Shown: piece after piece, positions 16,279-27,424 of the stretch
Layout: every line of letters begins with the position of its first letter
How positions within the stretch are numbered: the first letter of the stretch is position 1
From: Sphingomicrobium sp.
Lineage (GTDB): Bacteria; Pseudomonadota; Alphaproteobacteria; Sphingomonadales; Sphingomonadaceae
Assembly (NCBI GenBank): GCA_036563485.1
Contig: DATCMI010000001.1
Location: 1,861,501 to 1,925,500, forward strand
Length of the DNA stretch: 64,000 nt
Reading direction: 5' to 3'
Notes under the pieces: generated by a model
Database searches by the model: none
What the model saw: the letters and a program-made list of their open reading frames with translations, nothing else
What the model was told of the DNA's origin: nothing
Translations under genes and position numbers: made by a program

Positions 16279-16496
16279 GCCCGCGCGTAGCTTTCGAGAT
16301 AGCCGCAGCGCCCGCAGCGATAGGTCGTGACCTCCGCCTGGTCGTCCTTCGACTGCTTGACTCCGGTCCAGATGCTCTTGCGCGGCTCGCCGCCTTGCCA
16401 GGTCGCCACCCCGGCCATGCCGTAGGAGCCCTGGTCGACAAGGAAGCCTTCATCCATGCGCCCGCCGCACTTTGGACAGTCTCCCACGCCTTGCAT
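16275..16496 (-). CDS. Small two-CXXC zinc-ribbon protein
   Basis: 73 residues with two Cys pairs, CPKC near the N-terminus and CGRC near the C-terminus, which would form one zinc ribbon around a Trp/Gly-rich middle (VATWQGGEPRKSIW). Very strong Shine-Dalgarno AAGGAGGG with a three-base spacer before ATG 16496. Function unknown; it overlaps paaG by 4 bp and diverges from paaI, so it is embedded in the phenylacetate region. Confidence 0.8.
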   Translation of the reverse strand: MQGVGDCPKCGGRMDEGFLVDQGSYGMAGVATWQGGEPRKSIWTGVKQSKDDQAEVTTYRCGRCGYLESYARA

Positions 16497-16565
16497 AAAC
16501 CCTCCTTTTCGTGGCTGCGGCACGGGTCGCACGACCGATTGGCAGGTGCAAGACGGGGGAGCGGG

Positions 16566-16991
16566 ATGACCGAAGACGAACTGGCCCGCCGCGTTGCTGA
16601 GTGCATGCTCGCCGCAGAGGGCACCGGTCCGGCATGGGGCATCGTCATTGAGGAAGCGCGCGCCGGCTATGCGCGGCTGTCGATGAAGGTGCGTGGCGAC
16701 ATGCTCAACGGGCATGGCATCGTCCATGGCGGGATGGTGTTCGCGCTCGCCGACACCGCCTTTGCTTACGTCTGCAACGGACGAAACGAGAAGACCGTAG
16801 CCGCGCAAGCGAGCGTCACCTTCCTTGCCAGTGCGGAGGAGGGGCAGACGCTAGTCGCCGAAGCCGAGGAAGTTGCTACGTCAGGCCGCAGCGGCGTTAC
16901 GCGGGTTTCGGTGCGCACGACCGAGGGCCGGACAATTGCCGAGTTCACAGGCACTTCGCGCACAGTCGGCGGAGCGGTTGTCGACATTTGA
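16566..16991 (+). CDS. paaI: Hydroxyphenylacetyl-CoA thioesterase
   Basis: 141-residue hotdog-fold thioesterase with the PaaI signature GHGIVHGGMVFALADTAFAY. PaaI hydrolyses dead-end ring-hydroxylated CoA esters and so rescues CoA in the phenylacetate pathway. I started at ATG 16566 behind GGGGGAGCGGG; an upstream in-frame ATG would overlap the divergent zinc-ribbon gene. paaA begins 32 bp after its stop, so it is probably the first gene of the paaI-ABCE operon. Confidence 0.93.
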   Translation: MTEDELARRVAECMLAAEGTGPAWGIVIEEARAGYARLSMKVRGDMLNGHGIVHGGMVFALADTAFAYVCNGRNEKTVAAQASVTFLASAEEGQTLVAEAEEVATSGRSGVTRVSVRTTEGRTIAEFTGTSRTVGGAVVDI

Positions 16992-17023: not shown

Positions 17024-18004
17024 ATGTATACGACCGAGCTTCAGAAGAGCGCCAAGATCGAGAATCTCGAGGACCCGAAGCTGCTCGAGGCCTTCGAGGG
17101 GCGGGTTGCCGCCGACGAGTTTATCGAGCCCAAGGACTGGATGCCCGAGGCTTATCGCCGGACCCTAACGCGGCAGATCAGCCAGCATGCACATAGCGAA
17201 ATCGTCGGCATGCTTCCGGAGGGCAATTGGATCACGCGGGCGCCATCGCTTCGGCGCAAGGCGATCCTGCTCGCCAAGGTGCAGGACGAGGCTGGCCACG
17301 GCCTCTATCTCTATTGCGCCGCGGAGACGCTCGGCACGAGCCGTGAGCAGATGATCGAGGCGCTGCACAGCGGCAAAGCCAAATATTCGACCATCTTCAA
17401 TTATCCGACGCTGACCTGGGCCGACATCGGCGCGATCGGCTGGTTGGTCGATGGCGCCGCAATCATGAACCAGGTGCCGCTGCAGCGGACGTCCTATGGA
17501 CCCTATGCGCGGGCGATGGTTCGCATCTGCAAGGAAGAGAGCTTCCACCAGCGCCAGGGCTATGAGATCATGATCGCGCTTGCGAACGGCACGGCCGATC
17601 AGAAGCGCATGGCGCAGGACGCGCTCAATCGCTGGTGGTGGCCGAGCCTGATGATGTTCGGCCCGCCCGATGAAAATTCGCCCAACACCGCGCAATCCAT
17701 GCGCTGGCGGATCAAGCGCGAGACGAATGACGAGCTCCGCCAGAAGTTCGTCGACATCACCGTGCCGCAGGCTGATTTCCTAGGCCTGACCGTCCCCGAC
17801 CCCGATCTCAAGTGGAACGAGGACAAGGGTGGCTACGACTTCGGGGAAATTGACTGGGACGAATTCTACGCCGTCGTGAAAGGCGAAGGTCCAGTCGCCA
17901 AGGAGCGCATGAAGGCCCGCCGGGACGCTTGGGAAGACGGCGCGTGGGTCCGCGAAGCCGCCGAGGCGTACGAAGCCAAGCGCCGCGCGAGGAAGGCGGC
18001 GTGA
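17024..18004 (+). CDS. paaA: Phenylacetyl-CoA 1,2-epoxidase, catalytic subunit A
   Basis: 326 residues; a di-iron ferritin-like oxygenase subunit. Iron-ligand helices are visible as [13 protein letters not shown] and [13 protein letters not shown] (two E-x-x-H motifs). With PaaC it forms the catalytic core that adds one oxygen atom across the phenylacetyl-CoA ring. The GTG of paaB overlaps the stop (GTGA at 18001). Confidence 0.97.
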
Positions 18005-18285
18005 GTGGTGACTGGCCGCTCTGGGAAGTCTTCGTCCGTGCCAAGGGCGGTCTTTCGCATCGCCACGTTGGCAGCGTTCATGCTCCTGACGCGCAGCTCG
18101 CGCTCGCCCATGCGCGCGACACCTACACGCGGCGCCTCGAAGGGGTGAGCCTGTGGGTGGTGCCGTCGAACGAGATCGTCGCGTCCGATCCTGACCACGC
18201 CGGCGAGCTGTTCGAACCGGCGGAAAGCAAGATCTACCGCCACCCGACATTTTACGAGATCCCGGACGAGGTGAAGCACATCTAA
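18001..18285 (+). CDS. paaB: Phenylacetyl-CoA 1,2-epoxidase subunit B
   Basis: 94 residues ([20 protein letters not shown]..., [19 protein letters not shown]), the usual size of PaaB. It bridges PaaAC heterodimers and is needed for electron transfer. GTG start at 18001 overlaps the paaA stop; the paaC ATG shares one base with the paaB stop (TAATG). Confidence 0.96.
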
Positions 18286-19109
18286 TGCCGTCGCTGCCGC
18301 CGATCCGGCCCGAAGACGAGGCGGTCGCTGCGCGCGTGCGCCCGCTTGGTGCGTTCGATGCACCGGACCTTGAGGACCATCACGCCGTCCGCACCGAGAT
18401 GCTGCTGCGGCTCGGCGACGATGCGCTGGTGCTCGGCCAGCGCCTCAGCGAATGGTGCGGGCACGGTCCGGTGCTCGAAGTCGACATCAGTCTCGCCAAT
18501 CTCGCGCTGGACCTTGTCGGACAGGCTAACCTGCTGCTCGGCGAAGCGGGGGACGCGGACGATCTCGCCTTTCGCCGCGACGTCCTCGATTTCGGCAATT
18601 GCCTGCTGGTGGAGCAGCCGAATGGCGACTTTGCTCAGACCATCGCGCGGCACCTGCTCTACACCAGCTGGCAGCACATGCTGCTGCAGCGGCTGACCCA
18701 ATCTCCGGACCAGTTCCTGCGCGAATTCGCCGCCAAGGCGGTGAAGGAAGTCGCCTATCACCGCGACCTTGCGTCCGAATGGACGATCCGGCTCGGCGAC
18801 GGCACCGATAAGAGCGCTCGGCGCATGGCCGACGGGCTTGAGTGGAACTGGCGTTTCGTCCCCGAGCTGTTCGAGGTCGATGAGGTCATGCAAGCCGCAA
18901 TCGACAGCGGCAACGTGCCCGATCCGCGAGACTTCGAAGCCGATTATCGCGCAGCTATCGGCAAGGTCCTCAAGGAGGCTCAGCTGGAAACACCAGGCGA
19001 CCAGCGCCCCATTCTGGGCGGCCGGCGTGGGCACCACAGCGAGCATCTTGGGCACCTTCTGGCAATCATGCAGTTCCTGCCGCGCACTTACCCCGACGCG
19101 ACCTGGTAG
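18285..19109 (+). CDS. paaC: Phenylacetyl-CoA 1,2-epoxidase structural subunit C
   Basis: 274 residues, homologous to PaaA in fold but with degenerate iron ligands, as expected for PaaC; recognisable segments are LGQRLSEWCGHGPVLEVDIS and FAAKAVKEVAYHRDLASEW. Together with PaaA it forms the substrate-binding core. paaE begins two bases after the stop, leaving no room for the paaD that lies here in most bacteria. Confidence 0.95.
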   Translation: MPSLPPIRPEDEAVAARVRPLGAFDAPDLEDHHAVRTEMLLRLGDDALVLGQRLSEWCGHGPVLEVDISLANLALDLVGQANLLLGEAGDADDLAFRRDVLDFGNCLLVEQPNGDFAQTIARHLLYTSWQHMLLQRLTQSPDQFLREFAAKAVKEVAYHRDLASEWTIRLGDGTDKSARRMADGLEWNWRFVPELFEVDEVMQAAIDSGNVPDPRDFEADYRAAIGKVLKEAQLETPGDQRPILGGRRGHHSEHLGHLLAIMQFLPRTYPDATW

Positions 19110-19110
19110 A

Positions 19111-20184
19111 ATGGCCGAGCATTTCCACGCGCTGCGCGTCGCCGAGGTGATCGCGGAAACGAGCGACGCCAATTCGATCCGCTTCGAAATGCCGCCCGAG
19201 CTGCGCGAGCGCTTCGCATTCCGGCCGGGCCAGCATTTGACGCTGCGGGCCGAGATCGACGGCGAGGATGTTCGGCGCAACTACTCGCTCTGCACCGCTC
19301 CCGACGAGAATGACTGGATGGTCACCGTCAAGCGCATCGCCGGCGGCCGCTTTTCCAACTGGGTCGGCGACAATGTGAGGGCCGGCGACACGATCGAGGT
19401 TATGCCGCCGCACGGCAGCTTCACGACGGACTTTAGCGCAGGTCGCTCTCGGCACCTGGTCGGCATTGCGGGCGGCTCAGGCATCACGCCGGTCATGTCG
19501 CTGATCCGAAGCACGTTGAAAGCCGAGCCGAACAGCCGCTTCACCTTGCTCTACGGGAATCGCGACAGCAGCTCGGTGATCTTCCTCGAGCAGCTCGCGG
19601 CGCTCAAGGACAAGCATCTCGGGAGGCTCGAAATCTATCACTTTCTCGATGCCGAGGAGCAGGACATCGAGCTGTTCAACGGCATGCTGACCCGCGAGCG
19701 GCTCGACGAAATCATCCCCGCGCTGATCCCCGACGCCAAGGACGTTGACGGCTGGTTCATCTGCGGTCCCGGGCCGATGATGGACGCTGCCGAAGGCGCG
19801 CTTCTGGACGGCGGCACGCCCAAGGAGCGCATTCACATCGAGCGTTTCACCGCTGATCGCCCGCCCGAGGCAATCGCGCGCGAAATGGCTCATCTGCAGA
19901 CGCAGGCGGAAGGCGTGACCATGACGGTGACGCTCGACGGCCGCACCCGCAAAGTGCCGTTCACCGCCGGCAACATCCTCGACAGCGCACGTGAGGCGGG
20001 GCTGCCGGCACCATTCGCCTGCAAGGCCGGCGTCTGCGCGACCTGCCGTGCGCGGATCACGGGCGGCAAGGTCGAAATGGCAGCGCGCTACGGGCTCACC
20101 GACGAAGAGGTGGCTGCCGGCTACGTCCTGACTTGCCAGTCGGTACCGCTGGGTGATGGAGTGGCGGTAGATTACGACGCCTGA
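19111..20184 (+). CDS. paaE: Phenylacetyl-CoA epoxidase reductase subunit E
   Basis: 357 residues with three domains: FAD-binding (RRNYSLCTAPDEN), NAD(P)-binding (VGIAGGSGITPVMSLI ... FICGPGPMMDAAE) and a C-terminal plant-type 2Fe-2S ferredoxin domain (CKAGVCATCR plus a distal LTCQS Cys). It passes NADPH electrons to the PaaABC core. ATG 19111 is one base past the paaC stop. The 2Fe-2S cluster normally needs maturation help from PaaD, which is absent here. Confidence 0.95.
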   Translation: MAEHFHALRVAEVIAETSDANSIRFEMPPELRERFAFRPGQHLTLRAEIDGEDVRRNYSLCTAPDENDWMVTVKRIAGGRFSNWVGDNVRAGDTIEVMPPHGSFTTDFSAGRSRHLVGIAGGSGITPVMSLIRSTLKAEPNSRFTLLYGNRDSSSVIFLEQLAALKDKHLGRLEIYHFLDAEEQDIELFNGMLTRERLDEIIPALIPDAKDVDGWFICGPGPMMDAAEGALLDGGTPKERIHIERFTADRPPEAIAREMAHLQTQAEGVTMTVTLDGRTRKVPFTAGNILDSAREAGLPAPFACKAGVCATCRARITGGKVEMAARYGLTDEEVAAGYVLTCQSVPLGDGVAVDYDA

Positions 20185-20202
20185 GTTCGCTAATCGCCTC
20201 TG

Positions 20203-21396
20203 ATGCTGACCGAGACCAAGGGCCGCAGCCTTTCCGACCTACCACCGGTCAAGTCGGATTCGCTCCTCGAACTGATCGCGCTGTGCAACGCCGATCCAAG
20301 GCCCGAGAAGATCGATGTCGGTGTCGGCGTGTTCCGCGACGGTGCGGGCAACACGCCGATCCTGAAGGTCATCAAGGAGGCCGAGCAGCGGCTCGTCGAT
20401 AGCCAGCAAACCAAGGCTTACCTCGGCAGCGCCGGCGACAAGCGTTACGCCGAGCTGCTGCGCCCGGTCCTGCTCGGCGAGCATGCCGGTGACGAGCGGA
20501 TTGCCGGCGTCCAGACCCCCGGCGGCTGCGGCGCGCTTCGCCTTGCCTTCGAACTCATCGGTGCGATCAACCCCGGCGCGAAGATCCTGGTCGGCACCCC
20601 GACCTGGCCGAACCACGCCGCGATCATCAAGGGCGTCGGTCTCGAGATCAGCGAATATTCATATTACGAGCGCGGGCAGGGGGCGATCCGCTTCGATGCG
20701 ATGCTGGACGCTCTTCGGTCAGCGCGCGCCGGCGATGTCGCCTTGCTCCATGGCTGCTGCCATAACCCGACCGGCGCCGACCTTGACGAGGACCAATGGC
20801 GGCAGGTCCGCGATGTCGTCGTCGAGCGCGGGCTGATCCCGCTGATCGATATCGCTTACCAGGGTTTCGGCCGCGGGCTCGACGAAGATGCCTACGGCGT
20901 GCGCCTGATGATCGAGAGCTGCGACGACGTCGTTGTCGCGCAAAGCTGCGACAAGAATTTCAGCGTCTATCGCGATCGGGTCGGCTCCTTGTGGGTGAAG
21001 ACTGCTTCTGTGGAAGCGACCGCAACGGCGGTGGCGCACGTCTTTCAATTGGCCCGCGAGATGTGGTCGATGCCGCCTGATCATGGCGCCGCGGCGGTCG
21101 GCATCGTGCTGGACGATCCCGAGCTGCGCACGCGCTGGCTGAGCGAGCTCACCGCCATGCGTGACCGCATCAATGCGGTGCGCCAGACCATCGCGTCGGC
21201 CGACCCGCGTCTCGCCTTCATCGGCCGCCAGTTCGGCATGTTCTCCATGTTGCCGCTTTCCAAGGAGCAGGTGCTGAAGCTGCGCGAGGACAAGGCGATC
21301 TACATGGCCGACAGCGGCCGCTTCAATGTGGTCGGCATGAGCGACGAACAGGTCGAGCGATTTACGGCCGCGGTCGTGGACGCGATGAATGGCTGA
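20203..21396 (+). CDS. Class I aromatic amino acid / aspartate-type aminotransferase
   Basis: 397 residues of fold-type I PLP aminotransferase, closest in pattern to the AspC/TyrB subgroup: PTWPNHAAI, HGCCHNPTGADLDEDQW, IDIAYQGFG and PLP-Lys in SCDKNFSVYRDRVG. It starts 19 bp after paaE and overlaps the 2-oxoacid dehydrogenase E1 start by 8 bp. In this position the likely substrate is phenylalanine (to phenylpyruvate); that specificity is inferred from context. Confidence 0.88.
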   Translation: MLTETKGRSLSDLPPVKSDSLLELIALCNADPRPEKIDVGVGVFRDGAGNTPILKVIKEAEQRLVDSQQTKAYLGSAGDKRYAELLRPVLLGEHAGDERIAGVQTPGGCGALRLAFELIGAINPGAKILVGTPTWPNHAAIIKGVGLEISEYSYYERGQGAIRFDAMLDALRSARAGDVALLHGCCHNPTGADLDEDQWRQVRDVVVERGLIPLIDIAYQGFGRGLDEDAYGVRLMIESCDDVVVAQSCDKNFSVYRDRVGSLWVKTASVEATATAVAHVFQLAREMWSMPPDHGAAAVGIVLDDPELRTRWLSELTAMRDRINAVRQTIASADPRLAFIGRQFGMFSMLPLSKEQVLKLREDKAIYMADSGRFNVVGMSDEQVERFTAAVVDAMNG

Positions 21397-23446
21397 TCGC
21401 GACCCGGGCCGCGTCACCGCCGAAGTGGACTGGCGCGAGGTTGCGCGTCTCGTCCTCACCAGCCGGGAGCTGGACCGGCTCGAGGAACAGGAGCTCGTTC
21501 CGGCCCGGAAGGTCCTCTACCAATTCAGCGCCCGCGGCCATGACATGGCCCAGGTGCTGCTCGGGCTGCACCTCAAGGACGGCGACGGCGCGTTCGGCTA
21601 CTACCGCTCGCGGCCGATGCTCTTATCCTTGGGCGTCCCGCTTGCCGATGCGCTCGGCTCCGGCATGGGCCTCGCCGGCGGCTATTCGAACGGGCGCGAC
21701 ATCGGCGTGGTGTTCAACTTCCCCAACGTCGGCGGGGCGCACGCCTTCCCGATGGCGGGCGGGGTCGGCGCGCAATATACGCCGGCGGCGGGTTGGGCGC
21801 AGGCGATCGCCTATAAGCAGGAGGTCCTCGGCCAAGGCCCGTCGGACGCGATCAGCCTCGTGCTCGGCGGGGACGCGAGCTGCGCGACCGGCGGATTTTG
21901 GTCTGCGCTAACAATTGCAACGACACAACGTTTGCCGCTGCTCATCTACGTTGAGGACAACGGCTACGGCATCTCCGTGCCGTCCGAATACCAGACGCCG
22001 GGCAAGGACATCGCCGCGAACCTCGCGAGCTTCAACGGGCTGAAGATCTTCAACGGCGATGGCACCGATCCGGCCGAAGCCGCGCTGCTGGTCGAGCAGG
22101 CGGTGCGCTATGTGCGCACGGAGCGCGCGCCGGTGCTTCTGCGCCTGCGCGTGCCGCGGCTCGAGGGGCACAGCGCTCAGGACACGCAGGCCTACAAGAG
22201 CGAGGCGGAGATCGAAGCGGAATGGTCACGCGACCCGCTGCCGAAGCTGAAGGCGCATTGCGCAAAGCTGCAGATCGGCGACGAAGCCTGGAGCGACCTT
22301 GAGCGCGAGGTCGGCTGGCAGGTTCAGGCGGCGCTTGCGGAAGCGGAGAGCCGCGGCATTTCGTCGCCAGCCGATGTCACTCGCCACGTCTTCTATGAAG
22401 GCGAGATGCAACAGGTCGGCGGGTTGTGGAACAGCGGCTACACGCCGCCGGCCGCATCGAGCGAACCGCAAGGCTCAGGCCAGCGCATCAATATGGTGAC
22501 AGCCATTCGCCGGGTGCTGGAGCAGGAGCTCGAAGCCAACCCCCGCGTGCTTGTGTTCGGCGAGGACGTCGGACCGAAGGGCGGAGTCCATGCGGTGACT
22601 CTCGGACTTCAGGAGAAGTTCGGCCGCAACCGCGTGTTCGATACGTCGCTCAATGAAGAAGGCATCGTCGGGCGGGCGCAGGGCATGGCGCTGGCCGGGC
22701 TTATGCCGGTCCCTGAAATCCAGTTCCGCAAATATGCCGAGCCCGCGACCGAGCAGATCCACGATATGGGCACGATGCGCTGGCGCACCCACAATCGCTT
22801 CGCGGCGCCAATGGTGCTTCGCGTCCCCGGCGGTTTCTTCAAGTGCGGTGACCCGTGGCATTCGATGACCAACGAAGTCGAGTTCGTGCACAATCCCGGT
22901 TGGAAGGTGGCCGTGCCCTCGAACGCGGAAGATGCCGTCGGATTGCTGCGCGGCAGTTTGCGGGGCAACGACCCGGTGCTGTTCTTCGAACATCGCGCAA
23001 TGCTCGACGACAGCTGGGCTCGGCGATCCTGGCCGGGCGATGATTATGTGCTCGAGTTCGGCCGCGCCAAGAAGACTCGCGAAGGCGACAAGATCACGAT
23101 CGTCACCTGGGGCGCGATGGTGCCGCGCTGCGAAGCGGCCGCGGAAGGCTTTAGCGCCGACGTGATCGACTTGCGCACCCTGCAGCCGTGGGACCGCGTG
23201 ATGGTCCTGGAAAGCGTACGCAAGACGCGCCGCTGCCTGATCGTTCACGAGGACCTTCGCACCGGCGGCTTCGGGGCGGAGATTGCCGCGGTCGTCGCAG
23301 ACGAAGCCTTTCTCGACCTCGACGCGCCGGTTGCGCGGGTGACGATGCCCGACATTCCGAGCCCGCATCACCCGAAGCTTCTCGAATGGGCAGTGCCGTC
23401 GCCGCAGCGGATCCGCGACGAGATTGAACGGCTGGTGGGCTTTTAA
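21389..23446 (+). CDS. 2-oxoacid dehydrogenase E1, fused alpha and beta subunits
   Basis: 685 residues. Residues 1 to about 360 are the alpha part with the thiamine-diphosphate motif GGDASCATGGFW...EDNGYGISVP. Residues about 370-685 are the beta part (VFGEDVGPKGGVHAVTLGL, PEIQFRKYAEPATEQIHDMG, VHEDLRTGGFGAE). The fusion is in-frame, without an intervening stop. It resembles branched-chain E1 rather than pyruvate E1. E2 follows three bases later; no E3 gene is nearby, so the general dihydrolipoamide dehydrogenase is probably shared. By context the substrate may be phenylpyruvate. Confidence 0.92.
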   Translation: MADRDPGRVTAEVDWREVARLVLTSRELDRLEEQELVPARKVLYQFSARGHDMAQVLLGLHLKDGDGAFGYYRSRPMLLSLGVPLADALGSGMGLAGGYSNGRDIGVVFNFPNVGGAHAFPMAGGVGAQYTPAAGWAQAIAYKQEVLGQGPSDAISLVLGGDASCATGGFWSALTIATTQRLPLLIYVEDNGYGISVPSEYQTPGKDIAANLASFNGLKIFNGDGTDPAEAALLVEQAVRYVRTERAPVLLRLRVPRLEGHSAQDTQAYKSEAEIEAEWSRDPLPKLKAHCAKLQIGDEAWSDLEREVGWQVQAALAEAESRGISSPADVTRHVFYEGEMQQVGGLWNSGYTPPAASSEPQGSGQRINMVTAIRRVLEQELEANPRVLVFGEDVGPKGGVHAVTLGLQEKFGRNRVFDTSLNEEGIVGRAQGMALAGLMPVPEIQFRKYAEPATEQIHDMGTMRWRTHNRFAAPMVLRVPGGFFKCGDPWHSMTNEVEFVHNPGWKVAVPSNAEDAVGLLRGSLRGNDPVLFFEHRAMLDDSWARRSWPGDDYVLEFGRAKKTREGDKITIVTWGAMVPRCEAAAEGFSADVIDLRTLQPWDRVMVLESVRKTRRCLIVHEDLRTGGFGAEIAAVVADEAFLDLDAPVARVTMPDIPSPHHPKLLEWAVPSPQRIRDEIERLVGF

Positions 23447-23449
23447 GGC

Positions 23450-24673
23450 ATGATCGAAGTCCGCGTTCCCGACGAGCAGGAAGGCACCAAGGCGGTCGTC
23501 CGCGCCTGGCTGAAGCAGGTCGGCGATGCGATCGCCGAGAACGATCCTTTGGTTGAGCTCGAAACCGACAAGGTGACTCAAGAAGTGCCCGCGCCGGCCG
23601 CTGGCGTTCTAGCTGAGATCCTCCTCGACACTGATGCGGAAGCCGTGCCCGGCGCATTGCTGGCGCGCATCAGCACCGAAGACGGCGTTCGTCTCGAGCG
23701 CAGTGCGGAGCACGAGGTCGAACGGCGTTTTGCACAAAGGGCTGAGCAGCGCCCTTCGACTTCGCTCAGGACGAACGAAGCTGGCGCCGGGCAGGAAACG
23801 CGCCTGTCTCCCTCCGTCCGTCGCGCTTGCTTGCAGCACGGGATCGACGCGAGCCGAATAGAGGGGACCGGCCGCAACGGCCGCGTGACGCGCGAGGATG
23901 TCGACCGGGCGGTTGCCATGGCCACCGTCAGCCATGTCGACGATGGACCGAAGGCAATCTCGCAGCCGCGCGTCGCGGAGCCGTTCAGTGCGACCGACAT
24001 CCCGCACGACCGGATGCGCAGGAGCATCGCCGACAATATGGCGCGGGCGGTGGCCGAGCAGCCGCACGTTACCGCCGTGTTCGAAGCGGACTTTTCGGCC
24101 ATTGCCGCGCACAAGGCGGCGCTCGCGGCCCGTGGCACCAAGCTCAGCTACACTGCCTACATCGTCAAAGCCGCCGCCGATGCCATGGCAGTCGCGCCCG
24201 CGATCAATGGTCGCTGGGAAGAAGACCGGATTGCCATCTCGCCGACCATCGACATCGGCGTCGGCACCGCGCTCGGCGAAAAGGGTCTTGTCGTTCCCGT
24301 GGTCAAGGACGCCGGCAACCTCAGCCTTGAGCAGATTGGCGCCCGTCTCGATGACCTGACGCGCCGCGCGCGGGAAGGTAAGCTCGAGCGGTCGGACGTA
24401 TCCGGCGGCAGCTTCACCATCTCCAACCACGGGGTCTCCGGCTCGTTGGTCGCCGCGCCGATCATCCTCCACCAGGGTCAGGCGGCGATCCTGGGCGTCG
24501 GCAAGCTCGAAAAGCGCGTCGTCGTCCGCGAGATCGGCGGTCAGGACGCGATCCTCGTTCGCCCGATGGCTTTTGTGACCCTCACCATCGACCATCGCGT
24601 CGTCGACGGGCACCAGACCAACGCGTGGCTGTCGCGCTTCGTCGAGATCGTCGAAAGCTGGCCGGCCCCGTAG
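23450..24673 (+). CDS. 2-oxoacid dehydrogenase E2 (dihydrolipoamide acyltransferase)
   Basis: 407 residues: one N-terminal lipoyl domain with the lipoylated Lys in ELETDKVTQEVPAP, a linker, a peripheral-subunit-binding domain (PSVRRACLQHGIDASRIEGT) and a C-terminal acyltransferase core ending in the catalytic DHRVVDGHQTNAW. The linker contains a stretch encoded by a dispersed palindromic repeat (about 23740-23785), visible as RPSTSLRTNE. It hands the acyl group to CoA and so would release phenylacetyl-CoA if E1 uses phenylpyruvate. Confidence 0.92.
   Translation: MIEVRVPDEQEGTKAVVRAWLKQVGDAIAENDPLVELETDKVTQEVPAPAAGVLAEILLDTDAEAVPGALLARISTEDGVRLERSAEHEVERRFAQRAEQRPSTSLRTNEAGAGQETRLSPSVRRACLQHGIDASRIEGTGRNGRVTREDVDRAVAMATVSHVDDGPKAISQPRVAEPFSATDIPHDRMRRSIADNMARAVAEQPHVTAVFEADFSAIAAHKAALAARGTKLSYTAYIVKAAADAMAVAPAINGRWEEDRIAISPTIDIGVGTALGEKGLVVPVVKDAGNLSLEQIGARLDDLTRRAREGKLERSDVSGGSFTISNHGVSGSLVAAPIILHQGQAAILGVGKLEKRVVVREIGGQDAILVRPMAFVTLTIDHRVVDGHQTNAWLSRFVEIVESWPAP
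23740..23785. repeat. Dispersed palindromic repeat inserted in frame in the E2 linker
   Basis: The core CCCTTCGACTTCGCTCAGGA followed by CGAACGAA forms an imperfect TTCG...CGAA hairpin and matches a short repeat I know from intergenic regions of many sphingomonads. The same DNA gives the telltale peptides FVLSEVEG and VRPERSRR in the reverse frames. Here it lies inside a coding sequence, between the lipoyl and subunit-binding domains, and keeps the frame open. Confidence 0.6.
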
Positions 24674-24726
24674 GAACCTAAATCGTCTTGAACGCTTCGT
24701 CTTTGGCGAAGGTGATGGAGAAGACG

Positions 24727-25431
24727 ATGGCGCAACGCGATAACCGCACCCGGCCGGGCGGAAGTGATCGCTCGGGCAATGCGACGCAGCTCGCGGTAAT
24801 TGGAGCAGGCCTTGCGGCTGCGGCCGGCACCGCTGCATTTCTTCTTGCCAAGCGCACCGGAAGCGGCGGCGCACCGATCGAGAATATCAGCGATGCCCCG
24901 GACCACGTCTGGCGTCGCGGCACCGAGCGTTACGACGCCAATCTGGTCGGCAACACAGTGACGATCGGCAAGCCGGCCGATGAGCTCTACCGCGAGTGGC
25001 GCGACTTCACGAAATTCCCTCGCTTCATGGAGAATGTCGAACAGATCGTCTCGGACGGAAACGGCGTATCCGAATGGACGATCAAGGCTCCGGCCGGGAC
25101 CACGGTCCGAGTTCGCACCAGAATCACCGAGGACTCGCCCCGCCGGATCGCGTGGGAAAGCGAGCCCGATTCACAGATCAGGACCGAAGGCGCCGTCGAG
25201 TTCATCGAGGCCGCACCAGGCCGCGGCACGATGGTGCGCCTGACCATGCGCTACGATCCGCCGGGCGGCATCCTCGGCAAGGGGTTCGCAAAGCTGATGC
25301 AGCGCGAGCCAAAGATCCAGGGCCGGCGCGACCTTCGCCGGTTCAAGCAGCTGATGGAAAATGGCGAGATCGCGGTGAACGCGTCGCCCTCGGGCCGTGC
25401 GTCTGAAACACCCACCGAAGCCCGAATTTAG
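24727..25431 (+). CDS. SRPBCC-domain membrane-anchored protein
   Basis: 234 residues: one N-terminal membrane helix (LAVIGAGLAAAAGTAAFLLA) and then an SRPBCC/polyketide-cyclase-like START domain beginning at VTIGKPADELYREWRDFTKFPRFMENVE. I started at ATG 24727 with GGAG six bases before; in-frame ATG 24715 is possible. Proteins of this type often travel with stress genes. The ligand is unknown. The next gene begins 9 bp later with the Shine-Dalgarno AGGAGG, so they form an operon. Confidence 0.82.
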   Translation: MAQRDNRTRPGGSDRSGNATQLAVIGAGLAAAAGTAAFLLAKRTGSGGAPIENISDAPDHVWRRGTERYDANLVGNTVTIGKPADELYREWRDFTKFPRFMENVEQIVSDGNGVSEWTIKAPAGTTVRVRTRITEDSPRRIAWESEPDSQIRTEGAVEFIEAAPGRGTMVRLTMRYDPPGGILGKGFAKLMQREPKIQGRRDLRRFKQLMENGEIAVNASPSGRASETPTEARI

Positions 25432-25440
25432 GAGGAATTC

Positions 25441-26661
25441 ATGCGCGCACTGACCTGGCATGGACGCCACGACGTTCGGGTCGACACTGTCCCCGATCCG
25501 GAAATCGTCAATCCACGAGACGCGATCCTGCGGGTAACCTCAACCGCGATTTGCGGCTCCGACCTTCACTTGTACGACGCCTATATTCCGACGCTTCGCG
25601 CCGGCGACGTCCTGGGTCATGAATTCATGGGCGAAGTGGTCGAGGTCGGCGCGAAGAGCACGCTGAAAAAGGGGCAGCGCGTCGTCGTTCCATTCACGAT
25701 CAGCTGCGGCCAATGCTTCTTCTGCAACAAGCAGCAATTTAGCGCCTGCGATAACAGCAACCCGACCGAGACGTTCGAAGCGTCGCGCCTGCTGATGGGT
25801 CATCCGATGGGCGCGGCTTTTGGTTATGCGCATCTCACCGGCGGCTACGCCGGTGGGCAGGCGGAATATGTGCGCGTGCCGTTCTCCGACGTGGGGCCGA
25901 TCGTCGTTCCGGACCATCTGGAGGACGACGAAGTGCTGTTCCTGTCCGACATTCTGCCGACCGGTTGGATGGGGGCGGAAAATGCCGACATAGAACCCGG
26001 CGACACGGTGGCCGTGTGGGGCTGCGGCCCGGTTGGCCTGTTCGCAATTCAGTCGGCCAAGCTGTTGGGCGCGCACCGCGTGATCGCCATCGACCATTAC
26101 CCGCGCCGGCTCGAGCTGGCGAAGCAAATGGGCGCGGAGGTCCTCGATTATCGCGAAGTCGACGTTCGCGAAGCGCTCGACGAAATGACCGGCGGCATCG
26201 GCCCCGATGCGTGCATCGACTGCGTCGGCATGGAAAGCCATGGGCTGACCGTCGACAACATCGTCGATACCGTGAAGGCCCATACCTTCCTCGGCACCGA
26301 GCGGCCCCACGCGCTGCGTCAGATGATCCTGGCCTGCCGCAAGGGCGGACGGATTTCCATTCCCGGCGTCTACGGCGGGTTCGCCGACAAATTCCCGCTC
26401 GGCCAAATGATGGAGAAGGGACTGACCGTGAAACAGGGTCAGACCCACGTTCAGAAATATACCAAGCCGCTGCTCGAACTGATCGAGCAGGGAAAAGTCG
26501 ACACCACGTTCCTGATTTCACACCACGCGCCGCTGGAGCAGGCCGCGGAGATGTACCGCCACTGGCACGACGAGCAAGACGCCTACACCAAGATCGTCCT
26601 CAAGACCGAGGCGGCAACCCCCAGCAAGACCTCCAAGGAGCAAAAGCATGAGCTCGCGTAA
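25441..26661 (+). CDS. Zinc-dependent alcohol dehydrogenase (glutathione-independent formaldehyde dehydrogenase-like)
   Basis: 406 residues of the medium-chain dehydrogenase family: catalytic zinc site [12 protein letters not shown] and GHEFMGEV, structural zinc loop [16 protein letters not shown], and NAD-binding [20 protein letters not shown]. The long loop and length resemble formaldehyde dehydrogenase-like enzymes rather than classical ethanol dehydrogenases. Shine-Dalgarno AGGAGG. The 3' end overlaps the next SDR gene by 14 bp. Substrate not assignable. Confidence 0.88.
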
Positions 26662-27424
26662 ACTCGCCATCGTCACTGGTGCTTCGAGCGGTATCGGGCT
26701 CGAGCTCGCCAAATGCGCGGCGCGTGACGGTTATGACCTCATCGTCGCGGCAGACACGCCCTTCGTGGAAGCTGGCCCAGCGCTCCAGGAGTTCGGTGTC
26801 GACATCGATCAGTTCGAGGCCGACCTCGCGACGCAGCAAGGTGTCGATCAACTGTTGCAGAAGATCGGCAACCGGCAGGTTGACGTGCTGGTGGCGAATG
26901 CCGGCCACGGGCTCGGCCACGGCTTTCTCGATCAAAGCCCGCAGGAATGGCAACACGTCATCAACACCAACATCACGGGAACGCTGCTGTTGATCCAGCC
27001 GATCGTCCAGAAAATGGTCGAGCGCGGCGAGGGCCGCGTCCTGATCACCGGTTCGATCGCTGGTCATTTGGCGGGCGCCTTCCAGGCCGTCTACAACGGA
27101 TCGAAAGCGTTCATCGACAGCTTCGCCGCAGCGCTGAATGAAGAGATCAAGGACAGCGGCGTCACGATTACCTGCCTCAAACCCGGCGCTACGGAGACGA
27201 ACTTCTTTCACCGCGCCGAACTTGAGGACACAAAAATCGGGCAGGCCAAGAAGGACGATGCCGCCGATGTCGCGAAGGCCGGCTGGGACGGCATGAACAG
27301 CGGCGAACCGGCAGTCATATACGGTCTCAAGAACAAGATGCAGGTCGCGGCTGCCGGCATGATGACCGACGCCACCACCGCGAAGCTTCACCGCGCCCAG
27401 ACGGAGCCAGGCTCAGGCGAGTAA
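26648..27424 (+). CDS. Short-chain dehydrogenase/reductase
   Basis: 258 residues, SDR family: [32 protein letters not shown] and catalytic Ser ([11 protein letters not shown]) and Tyr-Lys (VYNGSK). Overlaps the alcohol dehydrogenase gene by 14 bp, so the two are translationally coupled and may act on the same alcohol or aldehyde. This SRPBCC-ADH-SDR arrangement looks like a stress-tolerance cassette; that reading is inference. Confidence 0.86.

Follow-up and report, generated by a model that had tools for sequence, protein, structure and literature searches.

In the PaaK-dependent phenylacetate catabolon, entry is through the phenylacetate-CoA ligase PaaK, and the steps of PaaABC(D)E, PaaG, PaaZ and PaaI follow. 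We describe here a locus of Sphingomicrobium sp. (assembly GCA_036563485.1, contig DATCMI010000001.1, positions 1,861,501 to 1,925,500, a stretch of 64,000 nucleotides referred to as the window) that has these later steps in common with the catabolon, PaaABCE, PaaG and PaaZ being present, but has no PaaK above the TIGR02155 cut-off. Here paaABCE are followed by genes for an aminotransferase and for a fused E1 and an E2 of a 2-oxoacid dehydrogenase complex that very probably acts on phenylpyruvate. The same reaction is described for PglB/PglC, a pyruvate dehydrogenase (PDH)-like complex that converts phenylpyruvate to phenylacetyl-CoA in phenylglycine biosynthesis by Streptomyces pristinaespiralis (PMC7089894). 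The likeness is one of described function; PglB/PglC are encoded by separate alpha and beta genes in a biosynthetic antibiotic cluster, whereas here a catabolic paa operon encodes a fused E1, the E2 that belongs to it and an aminotransferase. Phaeobacter inhibens is likewise reported to convert phenylalanine directly to phenylacetyl-CoA via phenylpyruvate, skipping phenylacetate (PMC7497051). The E1/E2 chemistry is also that of the branched-chain 2-oxoacid dehydrogenase (BCKDH) of Pseudomonas putida, BkdA1A2B-LpdV, although its E1 is encoded by separate alpha and beta genes, whereas the E1 described here is fused and the genome's BCKDH is located elsewhere. Relatives of the present E1 have an Lrp-type regulator beside them, comparable to bkdR in P. 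putida. In Phaeobacter the direct conversion is reportedly carried out by a ferredoxin oxidoreductase of the Ior type rather than by an E1-E2 complex.

The genes paaABCE, the aminotransferase, the fused E1 and the lipoyl E2 form a single tight plus-strand run (17024-24673) with overlaps or gaps of no more than 18 nt. Eighteen nucleotides separate the end of paaE from the aminotransferase start, the aminotransferase and E1 frames overlap by 8 nt, and E2 begins after a gap of 3 nt. These parts lie where the first-pass annotation, made from the letters of the window, had put them, and the paa cluster is wider than it had recognized, with paaG, paaI and paaZ also present (Table 1). From this genomic association we consider it highly likely that the fused E1 and E2 constitute a phenylpyruvate dehydrogenase complex that makes phenylacetyl-CoA, with phenylpyruvate as a main substrate. 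Phenylpyruvate is the oxoacid whose oxidative decarboxylation yields phenylacetyl-CoA, and it is the proposed substrate because an aromatic-type aminotransferase lies on one side of the complex and phenylacetyl-CoA consumption on the other. The aminotransferase would convert phenylalanine to phenylpyruvate, which the fused E1, a thiamine diphosphate (ThDP)-dependent enzyme, would decarboxylate while reductively acylating the lipoyl arm, such that E1 and E2 together would yield phenylacetyl-CoA from it. We infer co-transcription of the run and, likewise, which dihydrolipoyl dehydrogenase (E3), encoded elsewhere, would complete the cycle and yield NADH. Phenylacetyl-CoA would pass directly to the PaaABCE epoxidase and then to PaaG and PaaZ, bypassing the PaaK ligase, its ATP cost and free phenylacetate.

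The remainder of the genome, a single contig of 2.33 Mb that is 99.93% complete, is consistent with this route. The lack of paaK that the first-pass annotation had reported for the window extends to the whole genome, in which the best TIGR02155 match reaches 28.5 bits over 106 positions against a cut-off of 646. This partial match (G000:C1:1661773-1662084, in a 608-aa frame) is the sole PaaK-like trace in the genome. The organism therefore lacks a recognizable PaaK, probably cannot use external phenylacetate by way of this enzyme, and may be able to do without the ATP-consuming ligase that is usual for this pathway. Five E1_dh matches are present, corresponding to the E1 alpha of PDH, the E1 alpha of a BCKDH, a probable SucA (a 1024-aa frame), the present E1, and a weak match in a 648-aa frame that is probably Dxs. 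The four E2 matches are PdhC, the E2 beside the BCKDH E1, the present E2 and a probable SucB near SucA, the SucA and SucB assignments being made from size and nearness. PDH is encoded elsewhere by E1 alpha and beta genes (TIGR03182, 486 bits; PRK11892, 814 bits), pdhC and lpd, all above NCBIfam cut-offs. The separate BCKDH E1 alpha (bkdA1-like, G000:C1 ~1159.9-1161.1 kb) matches the P. putida 2-oxoisovalerate dehydrogenase with an E value of 6e-151, and is followed by E1 beta and E2 genes that fall below the cut-offs of PDH-type models and are assigned by position. The genome's bkdA1-like gene is thus a different one, and the present E1 is not its bkdA1/bkdA2 orthologue. With a distinct PDH, a BCKDH and a probable SucA/SucB in the genome, the E1-E2 pair is therefore a fourth complex. 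Its identification as the genome's BCKDH was rejected because a separate BCKDH is present, and as a second PDH because a complete PDH is encoded elsewhere.

The first-pass annotation had also called the cluster a self-contained phenylalanine module that avoids the ligase. The PaaK-independent conversion of phenylpyruvate to phenylacetyl-CoA is strongly supported by comparison, through the separate BCKDH, the co-occurrence with paaA, the linkage to paa genes in several orders and the PaaK-less state of its own genus (14 of 15 genomes); neither self-containment nor a general avoidance of PaaK holds. Searches of the 64-kb window (tblastn, E 1e-5, with the queries used) gave no match for PaaD, PaaK, E3 or an Lrp-type gene; a dihydrolipoyl dehydrogenase gene, lpd, lies instead near pdhC at ~0.41 Mb, and paaF, paaH and paaJ are not seen at the locus. 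An E3 gene in the same operon is frequent but not essential, and many bacteria share an E3 between complexes.

Among 196 genomes of the order, the fused E1 has 22 full-length members with 61-100% identity, the present one included, together with one 73% fragment; the own-order relatives are 61-81% identical to the window E1. Judged by sequence, the fused E1 is a distinct family: among the other matches listed in this sample, none exceeds 47% in the beta half or 37% when both domains are covered. All 23 E1-bearing genomes of the order sample have paaA, against 38 of the 173 without E1 (Fisher 7e-14; shared ancestry is ignored in this and the following tests). The association persists when the own genus is excluded (8/8 versus 38/173; Fisher 1e-5) and in a class-wide sample, in which E1 is found in 4 of 385 genomes at E 1e-120 and paaA in 4/4 with E1 versus 44/381 without (Fisher 2e-4). 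Of the 15 genomes sampled from the own genus, 14, the present one among them, have no PaaK match at E 1e-30, and among paaA-bearing genomes of the order sample PaaK is found in 6 of 23 with E1 versus 30 of 38 without (p = 1e-4), counting a fragment in one genome (G033) as present and weaker CoA-ligase matches (at most 241 bits) as absent.

Linkage to paa genes recurs well beyond the order. A scan of named genomes gave 289 E1 relatives, of which the best 80 were used for locus analyses and 50 of those 80 for genome-level tests. One or more of paaA, paaC, paaE and paaZ lie in the fetched DNA of 56 of these 80 loci, and of 36 of the 49 that span at least 21 kb. In the 50-genome set paaA is found in 48 genomes and within the fetched E1 locus in 28, at a distance of at most 11.6 kb from E1, and any of the four genes is in the locus in 34. 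By way of control, the BCKDH E1 alpha is less than 20 kb from paaA in none of the 39 genomes that have both (eight same-contig pairs, the nearest 31 kb apart), although this comparison sees same-contig pairs only and contig breaks could hide some close ones. E1 has an aminotransferase of the same cluster at most two genes away in 41 of the 80 loci and an Lrp-type regulator in 47. These neighbour counts are lower bounds because the gene caller is crude and misses some genes, such as the aminotransferase in L033, which was found by tblastn; neighbour clusters are named via NCBIfam from single representatives.

The arrangement of the linked genes varies. The own clade has paaABCE-aminotransferase-E1-E2; in Allosphingosinicella (L056) a divergent lrp precedes aminotransferase-E1-E2 (lrp<>aminotransferase-E1-E2), followed by paaZ/paaG/paaJ/paaA; and in a member of the Hyphomonadaceae (L096) lrp<>E1-E2-aminotransferase is followed by paaZ/paaG/paaABCDE. 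In Pseudomonas (L076) paaJ-paaK-paaABCDE-paaZ precede lrp<>E1-E2, and plasmids of Rhizobium CCGE531 and AB2/73 have the order paaK, paaZEDCBA, lrp<>E1-E2-aminotransferase, all of it in CCGE531 within one 16 kb block and in AB2/73 with paaK truncated by the end of the stretch. Relative to E1-E2, the aminotransferase gene comes first in sphingomonads and last in Hyphomonadaceae and Rhizobium, and the paa genes lie upstream of E1, downstream of it or divergent from it, depending on the locus. In Sinorhizobium meliloti Rm41, E1 and paaA are on one plasmid with starts 44 kb apart (29658 and 73555). On a quick tree the label 'paa nearby' changes 13 times when short contigs count as negative and five times when paa-less loci below 21 kb are left out, gains and losses being pooled.

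The proteins retain the residues expected of E1 and E2. The fused E1 carries E1_dh, Transket_pyr and Transketolase_C domains in one 685-aa frame, and with them the alpha and beta domains, ThDP site residues and catalytic histidines of both parts of a 2-oxoacid dehydrogenase E1; the E2 has lipoyl, E3-binding and catalytic domains and the HxxxDG motif. E1 residues N191 and H261 (alpha part) and H491 (beta part) are invariant in 32 aligned E1 sequences and align with their equivalents in solved E1 structures, and the ThDP motif GDG is GDA in the window E1. Among 73 E2 proteins tested, that of the window included, the DHRxxDG motif is found in 71 and the lipoyl-lysine motif in all 73. The closest relatives of the aminotransferase in the PDB are variants of E. 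coli aspartate aminotransferase and the aromatic aminotransferase 1ay4. A comparison with branched-chain complexes, which the first-pass annotation had suggested, shows near-invariant stretches in which the alpha part is unlike the 31 BCKDH E1 alpha sequences compared: for example, residues 70-76 read GYYRSRP against PTYRQQG in BCKDH, residues 124-132 read GGVGAQYTP against GNLATQYPQ, residues 114-116 form a three-residue insert, and Trp171 stands in place of His. The segments corresponding to the E1 active site in the alignment hardly vary within the family and are unlike those of either BCKDH or PDH. This signature would point to a different substrate site, and not to which substrate is bound; the argument from pocket residues, made from sequence, carries little weight. 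A structure prediction of E1 (mean predicted local distance difference score 66, predicted template-modelling score 0.68) was used solely to compare folds, and matches E1 beta and transketolase-type enzymes.

Several observations weigh against the proposed route. The genome has a homologue of phenylalanine 4-monooxygenase at 238 bits, just below the cut-off of 264.75, and phenylalanine may therefore also go to tyrosine, such that E1-E2 need not be the only phenylalanine route. No paaA, paaC, paaE or paaZ is found in 24 of the 80 loci, including 13 of the 49 of at least 21 kb, and two of the 50 genomes lack paaA, an Oleiphilaceae metagenome-assembled genome (MAG) and Methylobacterium Leaf123, the latter with no E2 after E1 in the gene calls. 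The first-pass annotation had expected E1-E2 to occur with paaABC and without paaK; the first expectation is borne out for paaA, but PaaK is found in 28 of the 50 named E1-bearing genomes (E 1e-100), 25 of them above the family cut-off, and the complex is therefore no general substitute for it. In the order sample, too, the avoidance of PaaK disappears without the own genus (5 of 8 with E1 versus 30 of 38 without, p = 0.37), so that no family-wide claim is made and E1 as a strict replacement of PaaK was rejected. The lack of PaaK characterizes the own genus and some other genomes (e.g. L074, L086, L092, L095, L096 and L100), several of the latter being MAGs in which incompleteness may contribute; isolates that lack it include Sphingomonas alba (L048), S. 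cremea (L049) and S. edaphi (L047). At E 1e-70, the BCKDH E1 alpha of the present genome has no orthologue in ten of the 50 genomes (four Pseudomonas, Pararobbsia, Shinella lacus, Martelella, two Pseudoroseomonas and Methylobacterium), nine of which have PaaK. In such genomes the complex could have branched-chain acids as its substrates, or a broad range of them. Finally, the lrp<>E1-E2(-E3) arrangement of Shinella and Martelella resembles the bkdR-bkd layout of Pseudomonas.

Of the other explanations, the one that survives best is a broad aromatic and branched-chain 2-oxoacid dehydrogenase for which phenylpyruvate is one of several substrates; it overlaps the phenylpyruvate dehydrogenase reading, and we regard it as less probable than that reading. 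The aspartate/aromatic aminotransferase family is broad in specificity, the Lrp-type regulator suggests an amino-acid input, and the complex is kept in some of the genomes without a canonical BCKDH, but the linked genes are those of phenylacetyl-CoA, and none of ten scanned representatives of neighbour clusters is specific for another aryl-acetyl-CoA, most small clusters lying outside that scan. It is unlikely that E1-E2 is instead a BCKDH with a fused E1 that came to lie beside paa genes by chance. Such an origin would accommodate the E1/E2 fold, the BCKDHs among the nearest solved relatives, the regulator beside E1 in many loci, which resembles bkdR, and the ten genomes lacking the canonical E1 alpha; yet a separate BCKDH E1 alpha accompanies E1 in the present genome and in 40 of the 50 others at E 1e-70 (identity at least 55% in 39 and 42% in the remaining one), only the fused E1 keeps company with paaA at its locus (28 of 50, against 0 of 39 for BCKDH within 20 kb, with the reservation on contig breaks given above), paaA is retained in nearly all E1-bearing genomes, and the alpha-part signature differs. 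That a ligase other than PaaK supplies phenylacetyl-CoA while E1-E2 serves, for instance, an acetoin or pyruvate-type reaction is very improbable, since the partial TIGR02155 match at G000:C1:1661773 and the sub-cut-off PDH and transketolase-like matches of E1 stand against a genome with no full-length PaaK, the one ligase family searched for, and a complete PDH elsewhere, and the conserved E1/paa linkage would be left unexplained.

A phenylpyruvate dehydrogenase is thus the reading that we extend, with somewhat less confidence, to the family. The best 80 of the 289 relatives are mostly from sphingomonads and Hyphomonadaceae, and others are from Pseudomonas, Shinella, Martelella, Pararobbsia, Candidimonas, Pseudoroseomonas and further genera; the closest, with E1 identity up to 88%, are from small-genome Sphingomonas and Sphingomicrobium. 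In a plasmid collection 90 records carry E1 at 60-80% identity, mainly from Sinorhizobium (76) and Rhizobium (9), and 18 records from a phage collection, all below 60% identity, were set aside. It seems reasonably probable that the family is a dedicated, unnamed phenylpyruvate dehydrogenase of Alpha-, Beta- and Gammaproteobacteria and of large Rhizobium, Sinorhizobium and Shinella plasmids, a ligase-free entrance for phenylalanine that has become associated with paa genes on more than one occasion, in differing orders, and that, with PaaK missing from small-genome sphingomonads and several Hyphomonadaceae, seems to be the only way in for these. Members are recorded as 'transketolase C-terminal domain-containing protein' or 'pyruvate dehydrogenase'. 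A fused E1 on pSymB of S. meliloti 1021 (NC_003078.1, 27348-29372; L167) is 68% identical and adjoins an E2 and an Lrp-type regulator, and we presume that these coordinates carry the tag SMb20020. A gene 'pdh SMb20020', listed in one study as a 2-oxoglutarate dehydrogenase E1 (PMC12542648), is probably this relative and probably misnamed.

Among the papers listed by full-text searches of the open PMC literature, no title or abstract opening describes a phenylpyruvate complex with fused E1 and E2 encoded in paa operons, or ties this fused-E1 family to phenylalanine catabolism; although the reaction is already known, the literature searched seems to contain no account of the enzyme family, of its catabolic setting or of the PaaK-less clade. 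A 2026 pathway survey took the PaaK gene as its anchor for inspecting gene context, with PaaA and PaaC also assessed as markers, and the word 'phenylpyruvate' is absent from its main text (PMC13186573). If the proposed function is correct, PaaK-anchored surveys would miss such clusters, and genomes with paaABCE and without PaaK need not be broken, having instead an ATP-saving entrance for phenylalanine that avoids free phenylacetate. The family would gain a function testable in S. meliloti, and the complex could serve as a tool for the production of phenylacetyl-CoA from phenylalanine.

Table 1. Genes of the paa cluster and the adjoining E1-E2 run, in window coordinates.
Feature	Position	Strand	Model or domain evidence
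paaZ, bifunctional oxepin-CoA hydrolase/aldehyde dehydrogenase, 672 aa	9678..11696	-	TIGR02278, 983 bits, cut-off 563
paaG, 1,2-epoxyphenylacetyl-CoA isomerase, 260 aa	15496..16278	-	TIGR02280, 364 bits, cut-off 345
paaI, hydroxyphenylacetyl-CoA thioesterase, just upstream of paaA	within 16395..16991	+	TIGR02286, 139 bits, cut-off 119
paaA, phenylacetyl-CoA epoxidase subunit, 326 aa	17024..18004	+	TIGR02156, 536 bits, cut-off 280
paaB, 94 aa, GTG start, overlapping paaA	18001..18285	+	TIGR02157, 142 bits, cut-off 85
paaC, 274 aa, 1-nt overlap with paaB	18285..19109	+	TIGR02158, 248 bits, cut-off 133
paaE, epoxidase reductase, 357 aa	19111..20184	+	TIGR02160, 421.4 bits, barely above cut-off 420.8
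Aromatic/aspartate-family aminotransferase, 397 aa; proposed phenylalanine to phenylpyruvate	20203..21396	+	NF006719, 480 bits, cut-off 377
Fused E1 alpha-beta, 2-oxoacid dehydrogenase, 685 aa; proposed phenylpyruvate dehydrogenase E1	21389..23446	+	PF00676 44-325, PF02779 367-539, PF02780 558-675
E2 acyltransferase, 407 aa; lipoyl, E3-binding and 2-oxoacid_dh domains	23450..24673	+	PF00364, PF02817, PF00198

The true start of paaI is probably downstream of 16395, because TIGR02286 matches residues 80-190 of the frame. paaD is missing between paaC and paaE (18285-20184) and is present in some other sphingomonads and Hyphomonadaceae (cluster c14). The 13 paa-less loci of at least 21 kb (L067, L071, L077, L080, L084, L085, L088, L090, L094, L098, L105, L106 and L111) have an Lrp-type gene beside E1 in 12 cases and paaA elsewhere in the genome in 12, L111 having neither, and a gene of the dihydrolipoyl dehydrogenase cluster follows E2 in L084, L094, L098, L105 and L106.

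The linker of the window E2 between the lipoyl and E3-binding domains contains a core resembling a repetitive extragenic palindrome (REP) at 23753-23776, read in frame as the peptide PSTSLRTNE; it is the single match in the 64 kb, and none was found in 100 shuffles. Short REP-like cores are found in four of the 20 loci of the own E1 clade (L036, L042, L048 and L049), only inside E2, and the E2 linkers of other relatives have different repeat-like peptides, such as VRPEPVEGL..FDKLRTNG and TPAKAGAQ. It looks as though repeat elements, which we take to be dispersed sphingomonad repeats, have landed in frame in a tolerant linker. After E2 (24688-27424) are genes for an SRPBCC-type protein, a zinc alcohol dehydrogenase related to formaldehyde dehydrogenase, and a short-chain dehydrogenase/reductase, and a dehydrogenase of the same kind as the zinc enzyme (cluster c20) is found downstream of E2 in L038, L039 and L042-L046.

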